Shown here piece after piece: positions 14,581-22,853 of a DNA stretch of 23,010 nucleotides; positions within the stretch are counted from its first letter, which is position 1, and each line of letters starts with the position of its first letter. This DNA is from a virus. Below the pieces are notes generated by a model. It had not been told where the DNA came from and made no database searches. It saw only the letters and a list, made by a program, of their open reading frames with translations. Location of the stretch: positions 1-23,010 of the IMG/VR virus record IMGVR_UViG_3300042691_020068; one strand, given 5' to 3'. The translations under genes were made by a program, and so were the position numbers.

Positions 14581-16596
14581 ATGTCAGTAGATTTTATAGA
14601 TGATAATCAATCAACGAATCAAAATAAAAAAATTAAAAAGAATTCTAACACACCAATATTAGATAACTTTTCAAGAGATTTAATAAAACTCGCTCAGGAA
14701 GGTAAAATAGACCCTATTGTTGGTAGAGATGATGAAGTAAAAAGAATTGCACAAATTCTATCGAGAAAAAAGAAAAATAACGTTGTTATTGTTGGTGATG
14801 CGGGTGTTGGTAAATCCGCTTTAGTTGAAAAATTAGCATTACTAATTAATAAAGGTAATTGTCCAACTAATCTTTTAGATAAAAGAATAATGTCATTAGA
14901 TTTAACTTCTTTAGTTGCTGGTACAAAATATAGAGGTCAATTTGAAGAGAGAATAAAGGCGATATTAAATGAATTACAAGAAGCACCAAATGTTATTGTT
15001 TTTATTGATGAATTACATACAATGGTCGGTGCAGGTAATGCCAGCGGTTCGATGGATGCTGCAAATATTTTAAAACCTGCATTAGCACGAGGTGAAATTC
15101 AATGTATAGGTGCAACAACTTTTGATGAATACAAAAAAAATATCGAAAAGGATTCGGCGTTAGTTAGGAGATTTCAGAAAATAATTTTACCGGAACCAAC
15201 AGAAAAAGAAACAATTGAAATTTTAGAAAACTTAAAGACATCATATGAAAATTTCCATAAAGTAAATTATGAAGATGGTGTTATAGAAACAATAGTTAAA
15301 CTTTCTAAAAGATTTATGACAGACAGACAATTTCCAGATAAGGCAATTGATGTTATGGATGAATTAGGGTCCGAAAAGAAAATATCTAATAAAATTCCTG
15401 AAATAATTGAGAAATTAAAATTAGAAATTGATGAAATAAAATTAAAAAAATTAGAAGTTGTAAAAACACAAAATTATGAACTTGCCGCTAAACTAAGAGA
15501 CAATGAAAAATTAGTTTTAACAAAACTAGAACAAGAAAAAGAAAAATGGGTAAATGAACAACATAAAAACAAAAAACCAATAATAATTGAAGACGTTTAT
15601 AAAATAATTTCAAATATTACCGGTGTACCTATAACAAAATTAGATTCAAAAGAAACTGAAAAATTATTAAATCTTGATAATATTTTAACATCTAAAGTCA
15701 TTGGACAAGATGATGCAATTTCAATTATCTCTAAATGTATTAGAAGAAATAGAGTTGGTATTAAAGATAATAATAAACCAATAGGTTCATTTATATTTTT
15801 AGGGTCAACAGGTGTTGGTAAAACATTTTTAGCAAAATCATTGGCAGAAATATTATTTGGTAATTCTGAAAAAATGATTAGAGTTGATATGAGCGAATTT
15901 ATGGAAAAACATAATGTTTCTAAATTAATAGGATCGCCTCCTGGTTACGTAGGGTATGATGAGGGTGGACAATTAACAGAAAAAGTAAAGAATAATCCAT
16001 TTTCTGTCATTTTGTTTGATGAAATTGAAAAAGCACATAAAGATGTTTTTAATTTACTACTTCAAATATTAGATGAAGGTCATTTAACCGATTCATTTGG
16101 TAGAAAAGTCAATTTTACAAACACATTAATTATTATGACATCAAATGTGGGGGCCAAAAAAGTATCTGAATTTGGTGGTGGTGTTGGATTTGAAACGTCC
16201 ACAACCACTAAACAAAAACAGGAAGTTAAAAAAACAATGATACAAAAATCATTAAAACAACAATTTAATCCTGAATTCTTAAATAGAATTGATGACATTA
16301 TTTTATTTAACTCTTTAGATGAAAATTCATTAAAAAAAATAATTAATTTAGAATTAGATAAACTAAAAAACAGATTAATTGAAAAAAATTATGAAATAAA
16401 TTTTGATGTTAGTGTTTCTCAAAAAATATATGAATTAAATTTACAAGAAGAATACGGTGCTAGACCAATAAAAAGAATCATACAAAATTTGTGTGAAGAT
16501 TTTCTTAGTGAAGAAATATTAAAAAATAATATTAAAGAAAAAACACCTGTGACCCTAAGGGTAAAAGATGGGGAATTAATTATTAGAAAAAAATAA
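14581..16596 (+). CDS. ClpC-like AAA+ unfoldase lacking the N-terminal domain
   Basis: This 671-residue protein has two AAA+ modules. The first has Walker A GDAGVGKS (72-79), Walker B VFIDE (140-144) and arginine finger region RRF (196-198). A short middle region (about 285-325, [13 protein letters not shown]) looks like the UVR-type segment of ClpC, with no long ClpB-type coiled coil. The second has Walker A GSTGVGKT (408-415), Walker B VILFDE (476-481) and sensor-2 GARPIKR (626-632). The loop GGGVGFETS (532-540) places Val-Gly-Phe where ClpP-dependent Clps carry their ClpP-binding tripeptide. The usual N-terminal repeat domain, which binds adaptors, is absent; only about 25 Asn/Lys-rich residues precede the first module. 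It could deliver substrates to host ClpP (inference). It opens the plus-strand block. Confidence 0.9.
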
Positions 16597-16971: not shown

Positions 16972-17005
16972 AATTAGGGGGGGGGGTCAATTTTCCCCCC
17001 AATTT
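16971..17005 (+). terminator. G10/C6 hairpin, likely terminator after lipoprotein gene
   Basis: A run of ten G (16977-16986) can pair with six C (16995-17000), extended by AATT on both sides, and ends in a short T-rich stretch. The poly-G is unusual in this AT-rich DNA. Because the G run exceeds the C run, the hairpin can pair in several registers. Confidence 0.6.
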
Positions 17006-17027: not shown

Positions 17028-17456
17028 ATGGAAAATGAAAAAAAATACATCGGAGATTTAATACTTTTAAGAGGAGTACCTGGAAGTGGTAAAACAACAT
17101 TAGGTAAAACAATTTTAAGATGTGTAGCATCTGACGACCCCGATGTTATTTCTGCGGATGATTTTTTTGTTGACAAAGATGGTAACTACAATTTTGATGC
17201 GACGAAATTAAAAGAGGCTCACGCACAATCTCAACAAAGATGTGCAACAAAAATGAAAAATGAATTTTCAAGAATTGTTGTTGCAAATACATTTACTCAA
17301 AAGTGGGAAATGGACGTGTATTATGAGATGGCGGAAAGATATAATTATCGAGTTTTTAGTGTGGTGGTTGAAAATAGACATGGAAACAAAAATGTACATG
17401 GTGTTCCTGATGAAAAGGTTACACAAATGACTAATAGATTTGAAATTTCACTCTAA
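17028..17456 (+). CDS. P-loop polynucleotide kinase-like protein (N4BP2/Pnkp kinase family)
   Basis: This 142-residue P-loop protein has Walker A GVPGSGKT (16-23), then SADDFFVD (42-49), where the Asp pair corresponds to the kinase catalytic/substrate Asp. A helix around KLKEAHAQSQQRC, ANTFTQKWEMDVYYEMA (86-102) and a C-terminal HGVPDEKVTQMTNRFE segment (124-139) follow. This arrangement is that of AAA_33-type kinases related to N4BP2 and the 5'-kinase domain of T4 polynucleotide kinase. It lacks the HAD phosphatase domain of T4 Pnkp. It probably phosphorylates 5'-OH RNA ends (inference, supported by the RNA ligase two genes downstream). Its stop overlaps the next start as TAATG. Confidence 0.8.
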   Translation: MENEKKYIGDLILLRGVPGSGKTTLGKTILRCVASDDPDVISADDFFVDKDGNYNFDATKLKEAHAQSQQRCATKMKNEFSRIVVANTFTQKWEMDVYYEMAERYNYRVFSVVVENRHGNKNVHGVPDEKVTQMTNRFEISL

Positions 17457-17701
17457 TGAGTCAATTTATTTCTTCTTACACTAAAGAGAATTACCCTAAA
17501 AAAAAATTAAAGATGAAATTTTATTATAGTACTTTTACACATAGATGGTTGTTTCATTTTATACCAACAATTAATTTATATCTTGAATCACATTCCCCAA
17601 ATGACCATAAAAGGTTTTGGCAGGATGGAATGTCTGGTTTATATTTGTCTTTTCAATGGGGTAAATGGTTACTCACAATAGGGTTTTACAAAAAATTATA
17701 A
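17456..17701 (+). CDS. Uncharacterised 81-aa protein within RNA-repair operon
   Basis: I do not recognise this protein. It is basic and aromatic-rich, with several Trp, Phe, Tyr and His residues. It contains FYYSTFTHRWLFHFIPTINLYL (roughly 22-43), SPNDHKRFW and a hydrophobic C-terminus (GLYLSFQWGKWLLTIGFY), which might associate with membrane but lacks a clear signal. It overlaps both neighbours by TAATG junctions, so it is translated in fixed coupling with the kinase and ligase. That strongly suggests a linked role and supports it as a real gene despite its length. Confidence 0.6.
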   Translation: MSQFISSYTKENYPKKKLKMKFYYSTFTHRWLFHFIPTINLYLESHSPNDHKRFWQDGMSGLYLSFQWGKWLLTIGFYKKL

Positions 17702-18771
17702 TGTTAGATATTTTAGAAAAATATCACAATGATGGTTTGTTATTAAAACAAATACATCCTAATCTTCCTTTGACTATTTGGAATTATTCTCCAAAAGTTC
17801 AATATGAAAGTTTATGGGATGATATTACAATTCAATGTAGAGGGTTGGTAACAGATTTTGAAGGTAATATTGTTGCAAGACCATTTAAAAAATTCTTCAA
17901 TTACGAAGAATTAAAACCTGAAACTATACCAAATGAACGATTTGATGTGTTCGAAAAACTTGATGGGTCATTAGGTATATTATTCAATTATAAAGGAGAA
18001 TGGGTTTTAGCTACTAGAGGTTCATTTACATCCGATCAATCAAAAAAAGGATGGGAATTACTTCAAAAATATAATTACAAAAAATTATTAGAAGATAAAA
18101 CATATTTGTTTGAAATAATCTATAAAGAAAATAGAATTGTCGTAGATTATCCTTATGAAGATCTTGTATTACTTGCGATAATTGATAATTCAGATGGTTA
18201 CGAATATAAAATATTTGATCCACATATTCATTTGGAAGGTATAAGAATAATTAATCTTTACCGAAATTTAGGTTTTAGACTCGTCAAAAAATTTGATGGT
18301 ATTAAAGACTACACCAAATTAAAAGAAATAATCAAAGATGACGAAGAAGGTTTTGTTATAAGATTTAACTCAGGATTCAGGATGAAAATAAAAGGTTCTG
18401 AATATGTTCGTCTTCACAAAATATTAACAAACATATCAAACCGAGATATTTGGGAGTGTTTGAAAGATGAGAAACCATTAGATAAAATCATTGAAAAAGT
18501 TCCTGACGAATTTTATAATTGGGTTAAAGAAACTAAAGATAATTTTGAAAAAGAATTTAAAAAATTAGATAACGAATATAAATGGATTTATAAAATAATT
18601 TTGAGAGTTAAAGACTCGAACGATAGAAAAGTTTTTGCAAATTATGCACTAAAATATACACACTCGTCTATATTATTTGCGATGTACGATAACAAATCAT
18701 ATAAAAAAATAATATGGAAAATATTATATCCTGAATATTCTAAACCATTTAAAAAAAATAACGATGTATAA
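17701..18771 (+). CDS. RNA ligase, T4 Rnl1 family
   Basis: This is a 356-residue protein from the start at 17701, chosen because it makes the same TAATG overlap as the neighbouring junctions; an in-frame ATG at 17665 would overlap 36 nt. Motif I is FEKLDGSLG with nucleotidyl-accepting Lys86. Upstream QCRGLVTD (45-52) and downstream RGSF (106-109), YLFEIIY (135-141), EEGFVIRF (215-222) and KIKGSEYVRLHK (229-240) supply motifs Ia, III, IV and V. The C-terminal helical part (about 245-356) resembles the tRNA-specificity domain of Rnl1. It seals 5'-phosphate to 3'-OH RNA ends, typically in cleaved tRNA anticodon loops. Kinase and cREC genes flank it. Confidence 0.9.
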   Translation: MLDILEKYHNDGLLLKQIHPNLPLTIWNYSPKVQYESLWDDITIQCRGLVTDFEGNIVARPFKKFFNYEELKPETIPNERFDVFEKLDGSLGILFNYKGEWVLATRGSFTSDQSKKGWELLQKYNYKKLLEDKTYLFEIIYKENRIVVDYPYEDLVLLAIIDNSDGYEYKIFDPHIHLEGIRIINLYRNLGFRLVKKFDGIKDYTKLKEIIKDDEEGFVIRFNSGFRMKIKGSEYVRLHKILTNISNRDIWECLKDEKPLDKIIEKVPDEFYNWVKETKDNFEKEFKKLDNEYKWIYKIILRVKDSNDRKVFANYALKYTHSSILFAMYDNKSYKKIIWKILYPEYSKPFKKNNDV

Positions 18772-19186
18772 AATCTATTTAGACGATGTACGAGTACCGA
18801 AAGATAAAGAATGGATACTTGTAAAAAACTACGATGAATTCGTAAACAAAATAAAAGAACTAGGATTAGAAAATATCTCAACGATATCTCTTGATCACGA
18901 TCTTGGTGAAAGTGCGATGAGAGAATATTTTAATAATGTTGCACCAAATTATGAACTTAACTACGATAATATTACAGAAAAAACCGGATTAGATTGTGCA
19001 AAATGGTTAATTAATCATTATCTTGAAAATAATGAAGATAAAATTTCTTTTCCAAATGTTTATACACATTCAGCGAATCCGATAGGTGCCTCTAATATTA
19101 TGGGAGTTGTTAATAATTTTTTAAAAAATATGAGAAAACCTCAAACTTGTGTTAGAGTTCGTATTGAACATACAATTAGTAAATAA
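18764..19186 (+). CDS. Cyclic-phosphate-processing receiver-like (cREC) domain protein
   Basis: This 140-residue protein has the layout of the cREC family, a receiver-fold group predicted from comparative genomics of RNA repair to process 2',3'-cyclic phosphates. IYLDDVRVP (4-12), TISLDHDLG (40-48), TGLDCAKWLI (74-83) and THSANPIGASNI (101-112) are its conserved blocks, with several acidic and His residues as possible catalytic positions. The start overlaps the ligase end by 8 nt. Together with the upstream kinase it would supply the two end-healing steps that a Rnl1-type ligase needs. Catalysis is a family prediction and not something the sequence proves. Confidence 0.75.
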   Translation: MYKIYLDDVRVPKDKEWILVKNYDEFVNKIKELGLENISTISLDHDLGESAMREYFNNVAPNYELNYDNITEKTGLDCAKWLINHYLENNEDKISFPNVYTHSANPIGASNIMGVVNNFLKNMRKPQTCVRVRIEHTISK

Positions 19187-19650
19187 TGAATATATTTTTT
19201 TTAGATAAAGATCCTAAAAAGTGTGCGGAATATCATTGTGATAAACATGTTGTTAAAATGATATTAGAAACCGCTCAGTTATTGTGTTCGGCACATTGGA
19301 TGACAGGTTCCGAAGCCCAATATAAATTATCACACAAAAATCATCCCTGTTCAATATGGGTTAGAGAGTCTTTATCAAATTATTTGTATCTATGTGAAAT
19401 TGGTTTAGAATTATGTAAGGAATATACACACAGATATGGTAAAAAACATAAATCACAAGAAATAATCGAATGGTGTATTATAAATAAAATAAATATTCTT
19501 GATAAAGGTATAACTAAAATACCTAAAGCGATGCCCGATCATTACAAAGTTGAGTGCCCCATACAATCATATAGAAATTATTACATTGGTGATAAATCAA
19601 ATTTCACTACTTGGAAAAAAAGAGAGATACCTTTTTGGTTTTATAAATAA
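19186..19650 (+). CDS. Pyrimidine-dimer DNA glycosylase-like (Pyr_excise-related) protein
   Basis: This 154-residue protein starts with MNIFFLDKDPKKCAEYHCDK, followed by HVVKMILETAQLL, NHPCSIWVRES (52-62), YLYLCEIGLELCKEYTHRYG (66-85), AMPDHYKV and YRNYYIGDK...TWKKREIPFWF. This order resembles a family widespread in phages and appears distantly related to T4 endonuclease V-type proteins (DKH-x-x-K, NHP-x-x-x-W). Activity has not been verified for this branch, as far as I know. It is joined to the cREC gene by a TAATG overlap, so it may instead belong functionally to RNA repair. Confidence 0.6.
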   Translation: MNIFFLDKDPKKCAEYHCDKHVVKMILETAQLLCSAHWMTGSEAQYKLSHKNHPCSIWVRESLSNYLYLCEIGLELCKEYTHRYGKKHKSQEIIEWCIINKINILDKGITKIPKAMPDHYKVECPIQSYRNYYIGDKSNFTTWKKREIPFWFYK

Positions 19651-19673: not shown

Positions 19674-19982
19674 ATGAACAACAACAATTATGATTCTGTT
19701 TTAGTTTTAGAAAAAAATTATTCTGATTTTAAAGAATACATTGATGAGACCAAATCAATGATTTATAAAACAATTATTGATTTATATGGAAAACTAAAAA
19801 ATAGTAAAAAAAGAAAAATTAAATTATTGGTTAAATCAACAGTAAGAGATGTTGATTTCGATACCGATTTTGAAATAAGTAAAAATTATTCAAAAAATCT
19901 TTTGAACGAAATTTTGAATTATTTTGTGGAACACGAGGATTATGAAATATGTATTAAAATAAGAGAACTATTAAAAAATTGA
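19674..19982 (+). CDS. Uncharacterised 102-aa protein
   Basis: I do not recognise this protein. It is highly charged and mostly helical, with a basic KNSKKRKIKLLVK stretch near the middle and a C-terminal helix ending in IKIRELLKN. The ATG lies 24 nt after the preceding stop, in a TATA-rich gap with two TATAAATA-like words, and shows no Shine-Dalgarno. It is followed after 21 nt by tRNA-Asp, with which it may share a transcript. Confidence 0.5.
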   Translation: MNNNNYDSVLVLEKNYSDFKEYIDETKSMIYKTIIDLYGKLKNSKKRKIKLLVKSTVRDVDFDTDFEISKNYSKNLLNEILNYFVEHEDYEICIKIRELLKN

Positions 19983-20003: not shown

Positions 20004-20075
20004 GGTCTCATAGTTAATCGGCTATAATATCCCCCTGTCACGGGGAAGTGCCGGGTTCGATTCCCGGTGAGACCG
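20004..20075 (+). tRNA. tRNA-Asp (GTC)
   Basis: The 72-nt cloverleaf has acceptor GGTCTCA / TGAGACC, a D-arm, and an anticodon stem TCCCC / GGGGA closing the loop CTGTCAC with anticodon GTC. T-stem CCGGG / CCCGG closes around TTCGATT, and the discriminator base is G. The 3' CCA is not encoded. It lies between a small unknown gene and the SLOG gene on the same strand. Confidence 0.95.
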
Positions 20076-20087
20076 CAAAACATTTAT

Positions 20088-20435
20088 ATGAAAATTATAG
20101 TGGCGGGAGGTAGAGATTTCAATAATTACGAATTATTGAAAGAAAAACTTGATGAACTTATTGGGAAAAATACAGATATTGAAATAGTATCGGGAATGGC
20201 AAGAGGTGCCGATACATTAGGGGTACAATATGCGAATGAGAGAAGTTACGAAATTAAGAAGTTTCCAGCACAATGGGATAAGCACGGTAAAAGTGCGGGA
20301 TATATAAGAAATGAAGAAATGGCGAAATATGGTGATACTTGTATTTGTTTTTGGGATGGTAAAAGCAAGGGTACGAAACATATGATAGACCTATCTAATA
20401 AATATAATTTAAACACAAAAATTATCGGATATTAA
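20088..20435 (+). CDS. SLOG-family protein (YspA/DUF2493-like)
   Basis: This is a 115-residue protein from the ATG at 20088; a longer frame would run into the tRNA. MKIIVAGGRDF (1-11) is the first strand and glycine loop, VSGMARGADTLGVQYA (34-49) the signature GxARGAD ligand loop, and SAGYIRNEEMAKYGD (69-83) and CFWDGKSKGTKHMI (87-100) complete the fold. This is the YAcAr/DUF2493 branch of the SLOG superfamily, whose members bind nucleotides or their derivatives, and some act in nucleotide signalling or conflict systems. The ligand cannot be read from sequence. It starts 13 nt after tRNA-Asp and ends before a strong terminator. Confidence 0.85.
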   Translation: MKIIVAGGRDFNNYELLKEKLDELIGKNTDIEIVSGMARGADTLGVQYANERSYEIKKFPAQWDKHGKSAGYIRNEEMAKYGDTCICFWDGKSKGTKHMIDLSNKYNLNTKIIGY

Positions 20436-20461: not shown

Positions 20462-20496
20462 AATGTCAACTTAAAAAAAAAGTTGACATTTTTTTT
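20462..20496 (+). terminator. Rho-independent terminator after SLOG gene
   Basis: The 11-bp perfect stem AATGTCAACTT / AAGTTGACATT with an all-A loop is followed by eight T. It ends the unit that includes tRNA-Asp and the SLOG gene. Confidence 0.9.
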
Positions 20497-22177: not shown

Positions 22178-22263
22178 ACCTTGGTGGTGGAACAGGTAGA
22201 CACGCAGGACTTAAAATCCTGTGGACCGAAACGTCCGTGCGGGTTCGATTCCCGCCTGAGGTA
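22178..22263 (+). tRNA. tRNA-Leu (TAA)
   Basis: The 86-nt class II tRNA has acceptor ACCTTGG / CTGAGGT, and anticodon stem CAGGA / TCCTG around the loop CTTAAAA with anticodon TAA. A long variable arm GGACCGAAACGTCC follows, then T-arm GCGGG / CCCGC with TTCGATT and discriminator A. CCA is not encoded. It is the first element of a tRNA-mRNA-tRNA-tRNA unit. Confidence 0.93.
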
Positions 22264-22264
22264 C

Positions 22265-22282
22265 TAACACTATCGTTCTTTG
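22265..22282. repeat. Left arm of 18-bp inverted repeat
   Basis: TAACACTATCGTTCTTTG begins one base after tRNA-Leu and is the inverted complement of 22666-22683, with one difference that gives a G-U pair in RNA. The last eight bases, GTTCTTTG, also occur just before tRNA-Leu at 22163-22170. Confidence 0.9.
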
Positions 22283-22301
22283 GAAAAAGGAGAAAATTAA
22301 T

Positions 22302-22652
22302 ATGGATATTTTATCATTTATTTTAGGAATGTCTATAGTGGTGGTTATCGCAGTTGCGATAGTTGCCGTTATAGCCTTTGTTAAGGTGAATAAACATAAC
22401 AAAGAAATAGAAATAATACATCAAATTATTGGAAGAAGATTTGATGAAACTCATCAAATTCTTGAAAAAGAAATTGATAATCAAAACAGAGAACGCGATG
22501 TGGTCATTCAAGAAATATATAGAAAATTTGATGACCAAAACAGAGAGAGAGATTCTATTGTTAACGACATTTATCGAACAATTGATTCTCGTCTTGATAA
22601 ACTTGATAATAAATTGTCCGGTACTTTAGGTGCTAAACAAATAATAAACTAA
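22302..22652 (+). CDS. Single-pass membrane protein with coiled coil, strong Shine-Dalgarno
   Basis: This 116-residue protein has an N-terminal membrane segment (about residues 4-27, rich in Ile/Val/Ala). A basic turn VNKHNK follows, then a long heptad-like helix (about 35-105) with two similar blocks ending in QNRERD. I do not recognise a family; the shape resembles small envelope-anchored coiled-coil proteins. AAGGAG (22287-22292) lies 9 nt before the ATG, and is the only strong Shine-Dalgarno I found in the window. The gene sits between tRNA-Leu and tRNA-Arg and is bounded by an 18-bp inverted repeat. Confidence 0.75.
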   Translation: MDILSFILGMSIVVVIAVAIVAVIAFVKVNKHNKEIEIIHQIIGRRFDETHQILEKEIDNQNRERDVVIQEIYRKFDDQNRERDSIVNDIYRTIDSRLDKLDNKLSGTLGAKQIIN

Positions 22653-22665
22653 AAAATAAAAATAT

Positions 22666-22683
22666 CAAAGAACGGTAGTGTTA
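22666..22683. repeat. Right arm of 18-bp inverted repeat
   Basis: CAAAGAACGGTAGTGTTA ends 4 nt before tRNA-Arg and can pair in full with 22265-22282 (17 Watson-Crick pairs and one G-U). Confidence 0.9.
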
Positions 22684-22687
22684 ATTT

Positions 22688-22759
22688 GGTCCGGTAGCTC
22701 AATGGAAGAGCAACAGCCTTCTAAGCTGTAGGTTAGTGGTTCGACCCCACTCCGGATCA
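22688..22759 (+). tRNA. tRNA-Arg (TCT)
   Basis: The 72-nt cloverleaf has acceptor GGTCCGG / CCGGATC, D-stem GCTC / GAGC, and anticodon stem ACAGC / GCTGT around CTTCTAA with anticodon TCT. T-stem AGTGG / CCACT and discriminator A complete it, and CCA is not encoded. It reads AGA, a common Arg codon in this AT-rich genome. Confidence 0.95.
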
Positions 22760-22764
22760 CTTTT

Positions 22765-22838
22765 CGGGATGTAGTACAGTCCGGTAGTATGCTTGGTTTG
22801 GGACCAAGAGGTCGTAGGTTCGAATCCTGCCATCCCGA
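22765..22838 (+). tRNA. tRNA-Pro (TGG)
   Basis: The 74-nt cloverleaf has acceptor CGGGATG / CATCCCG, anticodon stem CTTGG / CCAAG around TTTGGGA with anticodon TGG, a T-arm with TTCGAAT and discriminator A. CCA is not encoded. It follows tRNA-Arg after 5 nt. Confidence 0.95.
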
Positions 22839-22853
22839 CTTAAAAAATAAAAT

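Follow-up and report, generated by a model that had tools for sequence, protein, structure and literature searches.

We propose that a string of coupled genes in the window, the 23,010-nt IMG/VR fragment IMGVR_UViG_3300042691_020068 (one strand, 5' to 3'), very probably repairs RNAs (tRNAs, for instance) that are cut by host defenses, with the cuts made by anticodon nucleases as a plausible target. In the model to which we give slightly better than an even chance, a kinase, a cREC protein, a separate phosphoesterase and an Rnl1-type ligase make up an RNA end-healing and sealing unit. The kinase would phosphorylate the 5' end of the RNA, cREC would open the cyclic phosphate at the 3' end, a phosphomonoesterase from another part of the genome (the calcineurin-like phrog_547) would remove the remaining phosphate, and the ligase would then seal the ends. 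Most likely, cREC works beside the separate phosphatase and not as a substitute for it. We infer the chemical steps, the target RNA and the way in which cREC and the phosphoesterase share the work from the domains, the catalytic residues, the gene linkage, the lack of a T4-type Pnkp phosphatase above cut-off in relatives and the fact that most near-complete cREC-bearing relatives encode the phosphoesterase. The window is a 23-kb fragment, and the phosphoesterase of its phage is predicted from those relatives. The features of the predicted unit are listed below.

16977..17000, + strand: predicted intrinsic terminator (scan), ending the preceding lipoprotein gene and preceding the kinase
17028..17456, + strand: single-domain P-loop polynucleotide kinase of the N4BP2/AAA_33 type, without a phosphatase domain (profile matches)
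17456..17701, + strand: orphan of 81 aa, with an N-terminal helix and four beta strands predicted; often missing in relatives
17701..18771, + strand: Rnl1-family (RNA_lig_T4_1) RNA ligase of 356 aa when counted from TAATG (profile matches)
18764..19186, + strand: cREC, predicted cyclic-phosphate-processing receiver-like domain (profile matches)
19186..19650, + strand: Pyr_excise-like protein, the fifth coupled gene (PF03013, 1.1e-7; phrog_624, 2.1e-57)
19674..19982, + strand: o102, a 102-aa protein, part of the conserved locus (no family above cut-off)
20004..20076, + strand: tRNA-Asp (gtc), inside the predicted unit (ARAGORN; Rfam RF00005, 4e-11)
20085..20435, + strand: YspA/SLOG-family protein (PF10686, YAcAr, 3.5e-18)
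20462..20490, + strand: predicted intrinsic terminator closing the unit (scan)

The preliminary description had recognized a four-gene operon of kinase, 81-aa orphan, ligase and cREC. We confirmed the four open reading frames, their order and their coupling on the sequence: the kinase/orphan (17454-17458) and orphan/ligase (17699-17703) junctions are TAATG, and the ligase and cREC genes overlap by 8 nt (18764-18771). The unit proved longer than described, however. A further TAATG (19184-19188) joins cREC to the Pyr_excise-like gene, which had been missed, and the kinase, orphan, ligase, cREC, Pyr_excise-like, o102 and SLOG/YspA genes together with tRNA-Asp lie between two predicted terminators. 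The terminator scan returned 5 terminator-like sites against 1.1 expected; the hairpins and the gene spacing suggest that the seven genes and tRNA-Asp are carried on one transcript. The orphan, the Pyr_excise-like protein, o102 and the SLOG protein would belong to the unit by linkage, and the model gives them no step. The window contains four tRNA genes (Asp, Leu, Arg and Pro; 20004-20076 and 22178-22839), and an Rfam search of it yielded nothing but tRNA above threshold. Where the window has tRNA-Asp inside the unit, the closest relative checked (L011) lacks a tRNA.

The window probably derives from a T4-like phage of a large-genome group, and its host is likely a member of the Bacteroidota. 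Its terminase shows remote kinship to those of T4-like phages and of Flavobacterium phage immuto (28% identity to immuto). The cREC of immuto is 60% identical to that of the window, and a Runella MAG contig holds a cREC fragment with 63% identity.

The kinase matched PF13671 (AAA_33) at 3.6e-12, in agreement with the assignment made earlier, as well as KTI12 (1.2e-4), phrog_2071 (2.7e-36) and phrog_505, a polynucleotide kinase family (3.2e-8). At 142 aa it is a single domain, missing the C-terminal HAD phosphatase of T4-type Pnkp. Residues K22, T23 and D44 align with K15, S16 and D35 of T4 Pnkp; R38 of the T4 enzyme is without a counterpart, which we count against our model, and the alignment of R126 is uncertain. 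PADLOC matches of the kinase were dismissed as generic P-loop similarity.

The ligase matched PF09511 (3.4e-19, 70 bits against a cut-off of 28.3) and phrog_562 (2.4e-68), and T4 Rnl1 was matched in the PDB at about 1e-9. Against the T4 RnlA equivalog TIGR02308 it reached 69.9 bits, under the 242.25 cut-off. Translation more likely begins at ATG 17701 than at the mechanically assigned 17665, since homology to most relatives starts near residue 12 of the long reading frame. We mapped 12 positions of T4 Rnl1 (R54, K75, F77, K99, G102, K119, E159, E227, G228, K240, K242 and Y246); none of the 12 varied among 61 homologues, and every one but K119, which is Arg throughout, carries the T4 residue, bearing out the nucleotidyltransferase motifs that had been read from the window.

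The cREC assignment held equally well, with a strong match to PF20274 (cREC_REC; 5e-21, 75.6 bits against a cut-off of 27) and to phrog_1479 (1.2e-28). The LDD, SLDHDLG and HSANP blocks noted previously are conserved, and D7, D8, R10, D44, H45, D46, H102 and N105 are invariant in 44 homologues, remote phage ones included. The AlphaFold2 model of cREC (pLDDT 95.7) gave receiver domains among its best Foldseek matches, although weakly (E 0.09-0.2, TM about 0.4), and a PDB sequence search with the cREC profile gave chance matches only. The domain is experimentally uncharacterized (PMC9503650).

The orphan matched no protein-family profile, but it is a real gene: 24 homologues at the same place share invariant residues (W31, P37, Y42, P48, Y63, S65 and G76). 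Its AlphaFold2 model (pLDDT 78) had no significant fold match in Foldseek, and a PDB sequence search with its profile gave chance matches only.

A scan of viral contigs with the ligase recovered 80 loci, or 61 after dereplication with the window included, a sample biased towards close ligase relatives. In 54 of the 59 scorable dereplicated loci a kinase gene is found no more than 2 kb upstream of the ligase, which it adjoins in 50 loci, and cREC lies within 1.6 kb downstream in 35/49 scorable loci and adjoins the ligase in 31/49, so that the proposed conserved linkage of kinase, ligase and cREC was upheld by this neighbor survey. The o102 gene is also downstream in 40 of the 49 scorable loci. 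The usual order in dozens of uncultivated phages is clp-lipo-kinase-(orphan)-ligase-cREC-o102, and since the same arrangement recurs in dozens of contigs, it is not due to chance. In most relatives the cassette is preceded by genes for a ClpB-like double AAA ATPase and a small lipoprotein (14581-16596 in the window). The linkage is strong, yet every part can be lost: one locus (L007) retains clp-cREC-o102 with the kinase and ligase missing, and another (L166) retains kinase-orphan-cREC with no ligase between. In the clp tree, all ten cREC-less loci form a single clade with full support, so that cREC was lost, or never gained, once in this clade. The repeated independent losses suggested by the ligase tree were rejected on this ground; the conflict between the two trees suggests instead that ligases are exchanged between phages. 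Among the loci examined, a CxxC protein of about 80-112 aa is encoded upstream of the kinase in 7 of the 10 cREC-less loci (L038, L040, L043, L053, L056, L063 and L071) and in none with cREC.

The preliminary description suggested that cREC alone replaces the phosphatase of Pnkp, taking the RNA from cyclic phosphate all the way to 3'-OH. That a T4 Pnkp-type 3' phosphatase is missing was borne out by the single-domain kinase, by the window itself, which has no phosphatase between kinase and cREC, and by a search with PF25109 (HAD_PNKP; T4 positive control 7.9e-61), which gave no match above cut-off in six relatives judged near-complete from length alone (G004, G006, G007, G009, G012 and G015), G006 and G007 matching below it. 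These results favor a replacement, as does the position of cREC next to the ligase in most relatives. The claim nevertheless remains poorly supported. Isolated phages RaK2, Aeromonas 65, Samisti12 and Xanthomonas X1 encode both cREC and the full Pnkp phosphatase (PF25109), and most near-complete cREC-bearing relatives encode the calcineurin-like phosphoesterase phrog_547, found in four of the five cREC-containing relatives of at least 200 kb at 1e-39 to 1e-43 (G004, G006, G007 and G012), among them the closest relative (G004, 286 kb). The remaining one (G015, 217 kb) had no phrog_547 match, which counts against our own model. The cREC-less clade still has kinase and ligase, an observation that weighs against both replacement and our model. 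Hydrolysis of a 2',3'-cyclic phosphate gives a monophosphate, unusable by Rnl1, which requires a 3'-OH; a separate phosphatase is therefore expected. Receiver-type chemistry is not known to strip RNA of a phosphomonoester, and we consider replacement by cREC decidedly unlikely.

The phosphoesterase family of our model also occurs beside kinase, ligase or cREC genes in many other phages. The order is kinase-x-phosphoesterase-ligase-cREC in four loci (L057-L060), ligase-cREC-phosphoesterase in two (L151 and L164), cREC-Pyr_excise-phosphoesterase-kinase-ligase in L193 and ligase-kinase-x-phosphoesterase in Vibrio phage Cody (L194), and in L023 cREC overlaps the phosphoesterase gene. The kinase, phosphoesterase and ligase queries match separate segments of the phrog_8238 profile, as in a three-domain protein. 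In an independent sample of 61 dereplicated cREC-centered loci, the phosphoesterase was nearby in 22 and a ligase in 17, against about 3.6 expected if a gene is present at one site in every 250 kb; this expectation is rough and the loci are related, so that the nominal probability should be read with reserve. Matches to phrog_547 were also present in immuto, phi17:2, ME3, AhSzw-1, X1 and two uncultured giant phages. The sole near-complete genome of the cREC-less clade (G009) gave a weak phrog_547 match typical of another phosphoesterase class, a single case consistent with the joint loss of cREC and phrog_547. Among other possible healers sought in the relatives (2H phosphoesterase, KptA, RtcB and SIR2), none was found, or, for 2H, matches under cut-off only.

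A different possibility, tentative but deserving of attention, is that cREC acts away from RNA ends on a small cyclic-phosphate or NAD-derived signal arising from tRNA cutting or NAD attack, while the kinase, phosphoesterase and ligase repair the RNA. It would account for the cREC of RaK2 adjoining Sir2 and Nudix genes, that of AhSzw-1 adjoining NAD-salvage genes, the SLOG gene beside cREC in the window, L132 and L136, and the coexistence of cREC with Pnkp, itself an opener of RNA cyclic phosphates (T4 pseT annotation). Fusions of cREC and Nudix are found in other phages (PMC9503650). The presence of cREC in complete genomes with no detected Rnl1, Rnl2 or RtcB ligase (immuto, phi17:2, DLP6, S-SKS1 and AhSzw-1) argues for a role outside RNA ligation, and 24/61 cREC-centered loci have no screened partner gene within 8 kb; both facts are counted against our model. 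The earlier proposal named cREC homologues lacking a ligase partner as a refutation, and these genomes partly bear that refutation out, the linkage to the ligase being conserved in this phage group. Against the signal reading, the 8-nt overlap couples translation of cREC to that of the ligase in this group, the two genes are adjacent in the majority of scorable loci, and searches of near relatives for Sir2 and KptA found none. We favor action of cREC on RNA ends in this group because of the tight coupling to the ligase. A variant that we regard as unlikely makes cREC, the Pyr_excise-like protein and the SLOG protein a separate module, welded to the kinase-ligase unit, whose task would be to clear an alarm signal (a cyclic phosphate or NAD derivative) released by host anticodon nucleases; if so, the Pyr_excise-like family would be a nucleotide or RNA N-glycosidase and not a DNA repair enzyme. 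It is very improbable that the ligase is mainly a tail-fiber attachment protein comparable to T4 gp63 and the unit unrelated to RNA repair. The annotation of phrog_562 as 'RNA ligase and tail fiber protein attachment catalyst' invites this reading, but the nucleotidyltransferase residues of the ligase are conserved and its neighbors are the kinase, adjacent in the 50 loci mentioned above, and cREC, not tail genes.

T4 Pnkp and Rnl1 (pseT and rnlA) repair tRNA cut by PrrC. The window likewise combines a 5' kinase and an Rnl1-family ligase with conserved catalytic residues; it differs from T4 in lacking the HAD phosphatase domain, in its N4BP2-like kinase, in having the genes adjacent in one unit and in the score of its ligase, far below the RnlA equivalog cut-off. 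The link between cREC and RNA ligase and the proposed role of cREC are already published (2021-2022; PMC7824862, PMC9503650). The domain was named and linked to RNA ligases in a 2021 survey of jumbo phages, in which an additional linear phosphatase, of the HAD, calcineurin-like or HD type, was posited beside it (PMC7824862), and operons of cREC and RNA ligase, including a sirtuin type with T4-like ligase and kinase, were described there and in a 2022 survey of NAD-ADPr systems in viruses (PMC7824862; PMC9503650). As in those operons, cREC stands here with an RNA ligase and opening of a cyclic phosphate is predicted. Unlike them, the present locus has no sirtuin, KptA or Nudix partner (near relatives were searched for SIR2 and KptA), its kinase is single-domain, the 81-aa orphan separates kinase and ligase, and the genes hold a fixed place behind clp-like and lipoprotein genes with Pyr_excise-like and SLOG genes downstream.

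The present analysis adds a locus conserved across a group of uncultivated phages, a family of orphan proteins, a Pyr_excise-like gene as repeated neighbor and co-occurrence data that speak against a simple replacement of the phosphatase by cREC. The hypothesis moves from such a replacement to cREC working with a phosphatase or having another substrate. The compact, conserved gene set offers a place to assay the predicted role of cREC with its natural kinase and ligase, and points to the calcineurin-like family as the likely 3' phosphatase where the phage kinase is single-domain, and to two linked, unstudied families, those of the 81-aa orphan and of the Pyr_excise-like protein.

The Pyr_excise/phrog_624 gene is repeatedly coupled to cREC and the phrog_547 phosphoesterase (cREC-pdg-phosphoesterase) in various phages, odd company for a DNA pyrimidine-dimer glycosylase; its coupling to cREC was seen in the window and in L159, L170, L177, L183, L184, L188, L191 and L193. 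The YspA/SLOG gene is repeatedly beside or near cREC (L132, L136, L183 and L184), also in phages with no nearby ligase. The gene cluster of Vibrio phage Cody and the phrog_8238 proteins resemble the window in kinase type and Rnl1-like ligase, with a phrog_547-type phosphoesterase as a neighbor or apparently as part of one protein; the window differs in having cREC and no linked phosphoesterase. In Cody, the ligase, kinase and phosphoesterase genes lie just before genes for ribose-phosphate pyrophosphokinase and nicotinate phosphoribosyltransferase, placing RNA repair genes next to NAD salvage genes.
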